From: Olsenella massiliensis
GTDB taxonomy: Bacteria; Actinomycetota; Coriobacteriia; Coriobacteriales; Atopobiaceae
Reading direction: 5' to 3'
Assembly: GCF_001457795.1 (NCBI RefSeq)
Contig: NZ_LN898211.1
Span: 186,001-250,000, forward strand
DNA length: 64,000 nucleotides
Positions within the stretch are counted from its first letter, which is position 1; the number at the start of each line of letters is the position of its first letter. Made by a program: the position numbers and the translations under genes. The notes below the pieces were generated by a model, which was not told the DNA's origin, searched no databases, and was given only the letters and a program-made list of their open reading frames with translations. Below, one piece after another: positions 27,556 to 38,551 of the stretch.

Positions 27556-28187
27556 CCGTACGGCGACGCCGGACGGGTGCCCGCATGTCTCGCAAGGGGA
27601 CGTCGCGCACGTCTCGCGCACCGGCCTGTTGTCGATGCCGCACTCCACTCCGCGCTTGTCCGTGACGCTCATGCCCGCAGCGCCCCCCGCAGCTGCGCTC
27701 ATCTTGCAAACTGACTCGCTTTTCGCCGCAAATCGCGCCAAAACTGAGCCGAGAGGCACGATGAGCATGCGACCTGCGTGCTGACGCGCCGCATCGCGGC
27801 CAGTCGAGGCTGCGCGCCCCCGCAGCTGCGCTCATCTTGCAAACTGACTCGCTTTTCGCCGAAATTCGCGCCAAAACTGAGCCGAGAGGCACGATGAGCA
27901 TGCGGCCTGGAACGCGTCTGAGGAAGGCGCCCGCGTGGGAGAAGCCCGCGTGGACGCCCATGTGGGTGACGTTGTTTGCCCGCAATCGTGAGATTTTTTG
28001 TATCGGTTATGCCATGAGGGGGTATATCCGCCGTATCGAACGGGAAATCATGCGGTCGTCCGTCGGCTGCCCACCTGCGCGTCTGACGACAGGCTGACGC
28101 CTTGATGGGCGGGGTATGCCAGCAGGCGGTCGCTGCCGGGATCGATGTCCGGCTCCCGTGTTGGACTCGACAGAAGAGGTGTGTCAC
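27556..28187. other. Repeat-bearing intergenic region uppP / glutamate-type binding protein
   Basis: This 632-bp non-coding gap contains two 93-bp near-identical repeats (27684-27776 and 27817-27909) and a moderately AT-rich stretch at 27990-28060 that includes TTTTTTGTATCGG and GTATATCC, the likely promoter zone of the following ABC operon. No gene is supported. Confidence 0.6.
27684..27909. repeat. Pair of 93-bp direct repeats, 133-bp period
   Basis: Positions 27684-27776 and 27817-27909 align without gaps and differ at only about three positions (around the CGCCGCAAAT/CGCCGAAATT segment and GCGACC/GCGGCC). Each unit runs from CCCCCGCAGCTGCG to GAGCATGCGRCCTG and contains short open frames on the minus strand without a start context. 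No transposase is present. They may be copies of an interspersed intergenic element. Confidence 0.9.
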
Positions 28188-34850: not shown

Positions 34851-35828
34851 CTAGGGGCGCACCTCGTGCTTGGGTTCGCGCCCGTGCACGAGGACGTCGA
34901 TGACGGCGTCAAGGGCCATGCTGGTGAGGGTGTCCAGGGCCTCCTCGGACACGAAGGCGGCGTGGGGGGTCACCAGGCAGCGAGGGTGGTCTATGAGACG
35001 CTGGTCACGACGTGTCTCGTTCGTGAGCACGTCCAGGCCGGCGGCCCGGATCTGTCCGGCGTCGAGGGCGGCGACGAGCGCGTCCTCGTCGATCACGGCG
35101 CCGCGGGCGGTGTTGACCAGGAGGGCCGTGGGCTTCATGAGGCCCAGCTCGCGGGCGCCGATGAGGCCCCTGGTCTGGGGGATGAGCGGGCAGTGGAGGC
35201 TCACGACGTCAGCGTCCGCGAGCAGCTCGTCGAGCGTCGCGGCCTTCTCGCATCCTGCCGCCGCGAGGCATGCCTCGTCCTTGGTGGGGGCCCATGCCAG
35301 CACGCGCATGCCCAGCGCCTTGGCAAGGGGCACCATCTGCCGCGCGATGTTGCCAAAGTACACCAGGCCCAGGGTCTGGCCTTGGGTGCGGCGCATCGCG
35401 TAGCCGTGATGGGGGTCCCAGCCGCCGGCCAGGACGTCGCGATTGAGGAAGGTGGTCTGACGCATGAGGTCGAGCATGAGGGAGAGGGCGTGGAGGGCGA
35501 CGTCCTGCGCGCAGTATCCGGGACAGTTGGCCACCAGGACGCCGTGCTCCCTCAGGCCCCCCACGTCCACGTGGTTGATGCCCACGGACATGCTCACCAC
35601 GAGCCTGACGCCCGCGTCGGCGACGAGCTTGACGTCATCGCCCGAGACGGGCATGAGCTCGCCCAGGACGGCCTCCTGCCCGGCGAGCTCGTCGGCCGTC
35701 GGACATGTGAAGGGGGCATGGGCGAGGCTGGTGACATCAAAGGCGTCCGCGAGCCCTCGGGACGCAAGGTAGGACTCGGCGCGTCGCGCGTCGCCGTCCA
35801 CCGTATACAGCAGAATCCTATGGGCCAT
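34851..35828 (-). CDS. D-2-hydroxyacid dehydrogenase (NAD-dependent)
   Basis: This 325-residue oxidoreductase of the D-lactate/glycerate dehydrogenase family reduces a 2-oxoacid with NADH. The dinucleotide-binding segment is GLVYFGNIARQMVPLAKALG (about residues 145-165). The catalytic triad lies in LVNTARGAVIDEDAL (Arg), AGLDVLTNE (Glu) and VTPHAAFVSEEAL (His). AGGAGG precedes ATG 35828. It is divergent from the pcrA-type helicase. A 55-bp stretch 85% identical to the end of this gene reappears inside the helicase gene next to a sequencing-adapter sequence, implying a paralogue or strain variant. The exact substrate is unknown. Confidence 0.94.
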   Translation of the reverse strand: MAHRILLYTVDGDARRAESYLASRGLADAFDVTSLAHAPFTCPTADELAGQEAVLGELMPVSGDDVKLVADAGVRLVVSMSVGINHVDVGGLREHGVLVANCPGYCAQDVALHALSLMLDLMRQTTFLNRDVLAGGWDPHHGYAMRRTQGQTLGLVYFGNIARQMVPLAKALGMRVLAWAPTKDEACLAAAGCEKAATLDELLADADVVSLHCPLIPQTRGLIGARELGLMKPTALLVNTARGAVIDEDALVAALDAGQIRAAGLDVLTNETRRDQRLIDHPRCLVTPHAAFVSEEALDTLTSMALDAVIDVLVHGREPKHEVRP

Positions 35829-35972
35829 GCAGGCCTCCTCTCGCATTGGCTCCCATCATACGGTACGCCGGGGCGTCATGGTCCGTTCATCATGCGAAGT
35901 TGCGAGGGGATGGGGCAAGGCGTCGTCCCCGGGGGCTACACTGAGACGGTCACCGCAACGTGCAAGGAGTTC

Positions 35973-37733
35973 CATGCCCAGTTTCAACGAGTTCCAGGCC
36001 AAGCTCTTCACCATGAGGCCCGTGGGGCCCCCGCCCTCGCCTGCCCAGGGCGACAAGCCAGCGCCGCCGGCGCCCGCCGCCGACCGCGCGCGACGTCGGG
36101 CGAGGTGGACCTCGCGAGCCTGAACCCCTCCCAGCGCAAGGCCGCGACGACCACCCGCGGGCCGCTGCTCGTGCTCGCCGGCGCGGGTTCGGGCAAGACG
36201 CGGGTGCTCACCTATCGCATCGCGCACATGATCGCCGACGAGGGCGTGCGTCCCTGGGAGGTCCTCGCCATCACCTTCACCAACAAGGCCGCGGCCGAGA
36301 TGCGCGAGCGCCTGGGGACCCTGCTTCCGGGCGGCACGCGCGGCATGTGGGTGTGCACCTTCCACGCCATGTGCGTGCGCATGCTGCGCGAGGACGCCGA
36401 ACGCCTGGGATATGACGGCAACTTCACGATCTATGATGACGACGACTCCAAGCGCCTGGTCAAGACCATCATGAACGAGCTCGACCTCGATCCCAGGCAG
36501 AACCCCCTGCCCACGGTCAGGTCCATGATCAGCCAGGCCAAGAACGCGCTCGTCCTTCCCGACGAGTTTGACGCGCAGGCCACCTCGCCCCTCCAGCTTG
36601 CCTGCGCCCGCGTGTACCACGCGCTCCAGCGACGGCTTGGGCGGGCCAACGCCATGGACTTTGACGACCTGCTGGTGAAGGCGTTTGAGCTTCTGTCCAA
36701 GCACCCCGACGTGCTCGAGCGCTATCAGGACCGCTTCCGCCACATATCAGTGGACGAGTATCAGGACACCAACGCGGTGCAGTACGCCATCACGAACCTG
36801 CTCGCGTCCAAGCATCGCAACCTCATGGTCGTGGGTGACGACGACCAGTCCATCTACAGCTGGCGCGGGGCCGACATCAAGAACATCCTGAGCTTCAGGC
36901 AGGACTACCCAGACGCCGTGGTGGTCAAGCTCGAGCAGAACTACCGCAGCTTTGGCCACATCCTGAGCGCCGCCAACGCCGTGGTGCGCAACAACTCCCG
37001 CCGCGAGGAGAAGCGCCTCTTCACGGACAGGGGCGACGGCCACAAGGTCGAGGTCTTCCAGGCGGCGGACGAGCGCGACGAGGGGCGCTGGATCGGCGCC
37101 GAGATCGAGAGGCTCCATGATGACGGCCGCAGCTATGACGACGTCGCCGTGTTCTATCGCACCAACGCCCAGTCGCGCATCCTCGAGGACATGTTCCTGC
37201 GTGCGGGCGTGCCCTACAAGATCGTGGGCGGCACGCGCTTCTTCGACCGTGCCGAGATTCGTGACGTCACGGCCTACCTCAAGCTGGTCGTCAACCCTAA
37301 CGACGACGTGAGCGCCCTGCGCGTGGTCAACACCCCTCGCAGGGGCGTGGGCACCACCTCCATCCGCCGCGTGCGCGACTACGCCGCCCAGGAGGGCCTC
37401 TCGTTCGTGGACGCGGCGCGCATCTGCGCCGCCGAGCCGGGGCTGCTGGGCGCCAAGGCGCGCGGCGGCCTGGCCGAGTTCACGGGCGTGGTGGACGCGG
37501 GCAGGTCCTATGCGGGCGAGCTCGCGCGGGTGGTCGAGGCCATCGTCGAGAAGGCCGGCATCATCCGCGCCTATGAGGCGGAGCAGAGCGTGGAGGCGGA
37601 CGGCCGCATCGAGAACGTCCGCGAGTTCCTCTCGGTGGCGCAGGAGTTTGACGAGACGCACGAGGACGCCGCCGAGACGCTCGAGTCGCTGCGCCAGCTC
37701 AGGGAGGCGGGGGTCTGTCCCCTTCCACCATCT
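35973..37733 (+). CDS. pcrA: PcrA/UvrD-type ATP-dependent DNA helicase, 5' part (frameshifted and interrupted)
   Basis: This encodes motifs I-IV of a superfamily 1 3'-5' DNA helicase used in repair and in clearing replication blocks. LNPSQRKAATTTRGPLLVLA precedes Walker A AGAGSGKT (36178-36201). VDEYQDTNAVQYA, GDDDQSIYSWRGAD and LEQNYRS follow. The natural start appears to be ATG 35973 (AAGGAG upstream; MPSFNEFQAKLF), but that frame stops at 36121, and the helicase domain runs in another frame, open from GTG 36105. A one-base indel near 36070-36104 is therefore likely. The reading frame breaks again at 37734, where a Nextera mosaic end is inserted. Motifs V and VI lie in the 3' part. Confidence 0.88.
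37710..37722. other. Imperfect palindrome GGGGTCTGTCCCC just before the adapter
   Basis: GGGG-TCTGT-CCCC is followed by TTCCACCATCT and then the mosaic end. It translates to nothing helicase-like (VCPLPPSR), so the foreign or mis-joined sequence may begin here rather than at 37734. Whether the motif recurs in this genome is unknown. Confidence 0.5.
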
Positions 37734-37752
37734 AGATGTGTATAAGAGACAG
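37734..37752. other. Exact Tn5/Nextera transposase mosaic-end adapter sequence
   Basis: AGATGTGTATAAGAGACAG is identical over all 19 bases to the mosaic end used in Nextera tagmentation libraries. Its six-frame translations give the well-known contamination peptides VYKRQ, CIRDR and LSLIHI. It interrupts the helicase gene and has no accompanying transposase or second end, so it is a library artefact carried into the assembly. Confidence 0.97.
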
Positions 37753-37807
37753 GCGCTTGGGGTCGCGCCCGCGTGCCAGGACGTCGTTGACCGCGTCAAG
37801 GGCCATG
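37753..37807 (-). other. Fragment of a second D-2-hydroxyacid dehydrogenase gene (3' end), misplaced
   Basis: These 55 bp match 34866-34920 at 47 of 55 positions without gaps. On the minus strand they encode MALDAVNDVLARGRDPKR, the C-terminal helix of a dehydrogenase like the one at 34851-35828. The homology may extend a few codons further left in protein terms (to about 37830). It abuts the mosaic end exactly, so it is read as part of a chimeric molecule from a paralogue or from another strain. Confidence 0.85.
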
Positions 37808-38551
37808 CGTGCCGTCACGTCGGAAGGTCCCGCCACGAGCGCTCCCGCGCCCGTGGCGGCCGAGAAGCTCCCCGCCTTCATGGAGTGGCTGGCCCTGCGC
37901 TCGGACCTCGACGCCCTTGACGGGCAGACGAGCGCCGTCACGATGATGACGATTCACTCCGCCAAGGGCCTGGAGTTTCCGGTGGTCTTCGTCGCGGGCA
38001 TGGAGGAGGGCATCTTCCCGCATCGCGGCAAGGAGGATGACCCCGCCAGCATCGAGGAGGAGCGACGTCTGGCCTACGTGGCCATCACCCGTGCGAAGGA
38101 GCGCCTCTACCTGACCCACGCCTCCACGCGTCACGTGTTCGGGTCGGTGCAGGCCAACCCGCGCAGCCGCTTCCTTAACGAGATGCCCGAGCGGGACGTG
38201 CATGCCGTGGGCGTGGGGTCGTCAGGCCTCACGGGCGTGGGCTGGGCCAAGCGCGGCGACCGCCACGGCACGTTTGGGTCGGGACGTGGCTCGCAGGTGT
38301 ACGGCGGCAACGTCTTTGGCTCGCGCACGCGATCGACGGGAGGTGCCCCCTCCCGCCCCGCGCCCATCCACAAGGATCCCGCCAAGGCTGCCGAGAGCTT
38401 CGCCGTGGGCGACCAGATCTCCCACAAGACCTTTGGCCCGGGCGTGGTCAGGGCGGCCTCAGGCGACACCATCGAGGTGTACTTCTCGCGCACGGGCAAG
38501 ACCAAGAAGCTCATGAAGGGCTTTGCGCCCATCGTCAAGATCGAGGGCTAG
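37808..38551 (+). CDS. pcrA: PcrA/UvrD-type DNA helicase, 3' part
   Basis: This is the continuation of the interrupted helicase in a different frame from the 5' part. Helicase-like sequence resumes by about 37860 (KLPAFMEWLALRSDLDALDG). It then shows motif V TIHSAKGLEFPVVFVAGMEE and motif VI EEERRLAYVAITRAKERLYL, followed by a Gly/Ser/Arg-rich linker and a C-terminal domain FAVGDQISHKTFGPGVVRAA typical of PcrA's Tudor-like tail that contacts RNA polymerase. The exact 5' boundary is uncertain because the join with foreign sequence lies between 37807 and about 37860. With the artefact removed, the intact protein would be about 830 residues. Confidence 0.88.
   Translation, partial: RAVTSEGPATSAPAPVAAEKLPAFMEWLALRSDLDALDGQTSAVTMMTIHSAKGLEFPVVFVAGMEEGIFPHRGKEDDPASIEEERRLAYVAITRAKERLYLTHASTRHVFGSVQANPRSRFLNEMPERDVHAVGVGSSGLTGVGWAKRGDRHGTFGSGRGSQVYGGNVFGSRTRSTGGAPSRPAPIHKDPAKAAESFAVGDQISHKTFGPGVVRAASGDTIEVYFSRTGKTKKLMKGFAPIVKIEG

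Follow-up and report, generated by a model that had tools for sequence, protein, structure and literature searches.

The 19-bp mosaic end (ME) is the end of EZ-Tn5-type transposons, and mate-pair libraries receive TruSeq adapters after the shearing of circles. Circularisation in the Nextera Mate Pair protocol yields two MEs back to back, according to the description of NextClip (PMC3928519), and the ME AGATGTGTATAAGAGACAG is named among the known Illumina/Nextera adaptors in the SKESA paper (PMC6172800). We searched the literature for the peptides that such adapters leave in predicted proteins and found no paper; a search on adapter contamination of public assemblies found no directly relevant paper. 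Here we describe a feature of this kind inside the helicase gene pcrA of Olsenella massiliensis. It lies in the 64-kb window, by which we mean the whole stretch of DNA that was analysed. The feature is almost certainly an untrimmed Nextera Mate Pair junction assembled into the scaffold, an artefact and not biology, and it is already accounted for by known chemistry.

A paired adapter interrupts pcrA

An exact Tn5/Nextera ME, AGATGTGTATAAGAGACAG, lies on the + strand at 37734-37752, where the first-pass annotation had placed it. A motif search found this to be the sole match in the window at up to 3 mismatches, and the number expected by chance, estimated from 100 shuffles of the window, was 0. 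The same annotation reported no second end. However, an inverted ME adjoins the exact one at 37715-37733 (- strand) in corrupted form, CTGTCCCCTTCCACCATCT, matching CTGTCTCTTATACACATCT at 12 of 19 positions. The outer and inner five bases of this left arm (its first five and last five) are exact, and only 11 of the 127,964 19-mers of the window score as high against the inverted ME. The two arms adjoin with 0 bases between them and span 38 bp in total (37715-37752). The 19 bp at 37734-37752 are the right arm of the 38-bp Nextera Mate Pair junction adapter, in which CTGTCTCTTATACACATCT is followed directly by AGATGTGTATAAGAGACAG. The reading of 37715-37733 as the second arm is firm because other junctions of the genome show the same back-to-back pair. 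For GGGGGTCTGTCCCCTTCCACC, left of the ME, a native repeat was another candidate, but we rejected this reading: the sequence has a single exact copy in the genome, and the 19 bases beside the ME fit the second adapter arm.

The gene that carries the adapter encodes the DNA helicase PcrA. Its 5' part, up to a variable linker, occupies 36105-37712 on the + strand and matches positions 2-523 of the TIGR01073 profile (E=5.7e-205). The 3' part, which includes motif V, lies in another frame at 37857-38551 on the + strand and matches positions 523-724 (E=7e-50). From about 37748 the right part of the gene is read in a different frame from the left, in agreement with the earlier claim that the ME breaks the reading frame, and comparison with relatives indicates that native sequence resumes at or before ...PVAAEKLPAF. 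The halves score 682.8 and 170.1 bits separately, and the curated cut-off of 911 bits for TIGR01073 is not reached in any single frame. A single gene that has been split would give such a pair of sub-cut-off scores at abutting profile positions, and together the two halves leave none of the family profile uncovered.

The 5' part of pcrA is 82-84% identical to four genomes of the same genus, in all of which the gene is open. Among these relatives the linker between ...LESLRQLREAG and (P)VAAEKLPAF varies in length and sequence, which places the break in a little-constrained region. We infer that pcrA is intact in the living cell. It is extremely unlikely that the gene is truly interrupted in the strain and that the adapter only marks a poorly covered, rearranged site; no observation calls for that. 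Translations of the open reading frames contain the artefact peptides HLDVYKRQ, MCIRDR and LSLIHI, as had been claimed, and also CLLYTSR.

Junctions recur throughout the assembly

We searched the assembly to which the window belongs (1.82 Mb, 13 contigs) for the ME at up to 1 mismatch. The search returned 17 copies, 10 exact and 7 with one mismatch, and the reversed ME, used as a control on the same assembly, gave 0 matches. All 17 sit in back-to-back pairs of CTGTCTCTTATACACATCT and AGATGTGTATAAGAGACAG, making 15 junctions in total, 14 of them besides the window site. The contamination is genome-wide, beyond the single site first noticed. The junctions are spread over contigs C9-C13 (for example C12:193144-193181, C13:277065-277102 and C13:594854-594872), and one stands at the very start of C9. 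The junction at C12:193144 matches perfectly along all 38 bp, and every other one shows slight corruption of one arm or of both. Outside the window site, each arm of the 13 junctions that were measured agrees with the ME at 14-19 of 19 positions. The left arm is intact or nearly so at most of the other junctions and is most corrupted at the window site.

A remnant of the TruSeq P5 adapter, CTTTCCCTACCCGGCGCTCTTCCGATCT, matching at 26 of 28 positions, is located just upstream of the perfect junction (C12 about 193100). It was seen at this one junction of the assembly and not at the window site. By eye, the frames beside several junctions resemble RNase HII, DinB, Ppx/GppA, a P-type ATPase and an ABC-transporter permease. 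The window also contains a 93-bp direct repeat (27684-27776 and 27817-27909; 97% identical, 133 bp apart) with no adapter near, which looks like a native repeat.

Displaced DNA follows the adapter

To the right of the adapter, 37753-37808 (+ strand) is the displaced end of a circularised fragment; its right limit is uncertain and may reach about 37856. The in-place counterpart is at 34868-34921 (+ strand), in the 3' end of a 2-hydroxyacid dehydrogenase gene that occupies 34851-35846 on the - strand. Positions 37755-37808 are 87% identical to this counterpart, which lies 2,887 bp upstream in the same orientation. On a first reading the sequence right of the ME was guessed to be a DnaX fragment, a candidate rejected on its match to the C-terminus of the 2-hydroxyacid dehydrogenase 2.9 kb away. 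The false stretch in pcrA is at least ~94 bp long (37715-37808), not 19, and its right edge may be anywhere up to about 37856. The interval originally assigned to the feature is accurate for the exact ME and falls short of the full extent of the foreign sequence. Removing the 19 bp alone would leave pcrA unrestored, because the adapter is followed by displaced sequence of native type, at least 54-56 bp long (37753-37808).

Displaced same-strand copies were found at 8 of the 14 junctions examined with their flanks. They are 42-106 nt long, 87-100% identical to the in-place sequence and 2.3-9.6 kb away from it, and all eight have the geometry of a circle: either the DNA right of the adapter duplicates sequence that lies upstream, or the DNA left of it duplicates sequence that lies downstream. 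No displaced copy of this kind was found nearby at the remaining 6 of these 14 junctions, and none was found at random control positions (0 of 556). The 87% identity at the window site is the lowest, the other seven copies being 94-100% identical. We found no better source for this copy, beyond short matches, in 100 relatives and 140 family genomes. The divergence may reflect strain variation, a related strain, carry-over in a pooled library, or a poor read or read errors; the verdict is unaffected.

The same contamination in other genomes

The exact ME is present in 5 of the 140 family genomes and absent from the other 135, which include the four others of the same genus. Besides the assembly of the window there are four carriers, and in three of these the ME sits mostly at or near contig ends, which fits ordinary paired-end residue. 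In a species-level collection of other public genomes, the half-junction was detected in at least 114 stretches, many of them in named isolates and metagenome bins. It was also detected in eight viral contig stretches (IMG/VR), several near contig ends and five from metagenome 3300021189. In 8-kb stretches of the other public genomes, taken over many junctions, 36 of 53 same-strand copies show the predicted geometry, a majority but not all.

Hugonella massiliensis AT8 is among the listed carriers of the half-junction. It was sequenced from a Nextera Mate Pair library that had not been size-selected, had fragments ranging from 1.5-11 kb and was pooled with those of 11 other projects. Both trimmed and untrimmed reads entered the assembly, and GapCloser was used to close gaps (PMC5552949). 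By analogy, such a recipe would produce the pattern seen in the assembly of the window.

Discussion

We observed directly both arms of the adapter, the displaced copy with its geometry, the TruSeq remnant and the repetition of junctions throughout the assembly. Known library chemistry explains how they almost certainly arose. Tn5 carrying 19-bp mosaic ends would have tagmented the genomic DNA, and circularisation of the kilobase-long fragments would have brought two mosaic ends together back to back. Shearing of the circles would have been followed by ligation of TruSeq adapters. A junction read from such a library would start in one end of a fragment, cross the 38-bp adapter and continue in the opposite end, 2-10 kb off. 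Such reads may have been used to extend into, or to close, a poorly covered gap in the variable and GC-rich pcrA linker. In doing so they would have left the adapter and 54-56 bp or more from the far end of a ~2.9-kb fragment in the gene, splitting the helicase into two frames. The join itself was probably made by gap closing with untrimmed reads. The first-pass annotation was right to call the feature a library artefact in the contig; its picture of a lone tagmentation end gives way to that of a mate-pair circularisation junction with two MEs.

Other origins of the ME can be weighed against this reading. Residue in the contig from an ordinary paired-end Nextera library, either by read-through or as an end adapter, would present the same 19-bp ME, which is shared by both kits, and in the family genomes G157 and G050 the ME does lie mostly at contig ends. 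However, the window site, like the other junctions examined, has its MEs as a back-to-back pair in the interior of a contig, the displaced copies obey circle geometry, and the assembly contains a TruSeq adapter, which mate-pair libraries carry. We consider a paired-end origin very unlikely. The identity of the ME with EZ-Tn5-type ends could instead suggest a real Tn5-derived insertion, such as mutagenesis with a transposon that has ME ends would leave. Two results speak against a living transposon of the Tn5 type: the 14 junctions examined all lack a 9-bp target duplication, with agreement at 1-6 of 9 bases (3 of 9 at the window site), and the arms of the junctions examined enclose no cargo, being separated by 0 bases. 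The occurrence of the ME pair at fifteen separate places in one genome, together with the TruSeq adapter, argues against it as well, and its probability is close to negligible.

The feature could also be a natural ME-like sequence or mobile element, with pcrA a true pseudogene, and the bases left of the ME could be read as a native repeat. Yet GGGGTCTGTCCCCTTCCAC has one exact copy in the genome and is not a repeat there, and zero MEs are expected by chance. In the four same-genus genomes pcrA is open and the exact ME is absent, and it is improbable that a conserved helicase gene would be naturally broken exactly at an adapter. We regard a natural origin as negligible. The mate-pair junction is the explanation that we retain.

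The relevance of these results is one of data quality only. In this one assembly, sequence is corrupted or split at fifteen junctions, and false peptides such as HLDVYKRQ and MCIRDR enter predicted proteins; several further genes of this assembly are probably split or altered by junctions. Many junctions also adjoin a displaced native fragment, which would survive if only the adapter were trimmed. Taken together, the 38-bp signature and a displaced copy offer a simple means to find and mask such sites.

Set beside known systems, the window gene resembles the DNA helicase PcrA (TIGR01073) in that both of its halves match at abutting profile positions, and differs from it in being split into two frames at a variable linker by an artefact. 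The residue left by Nextera paired-end libraries at contig ends shares the same mosaic end, but it is single and mostly at contig ends, as in G157 and G050, whereas the mosaic end of the window is double and inside a contig. The Nextera Mate Pair junction adapter (CTGTCTCTTATACACATCTAGATGTGTATAAGAGACAG), as it occurs in assemblies, shares with the window feature the paired 19-bp MEs joined to both ends of a kilobase-long fragment, a TruSeq adapter at a single genomic site and the recurrence through the assembly. The window feature departs from it in its corrupted left arm (12/19) and in a displaced end that is 87% identical to the in-place copy.
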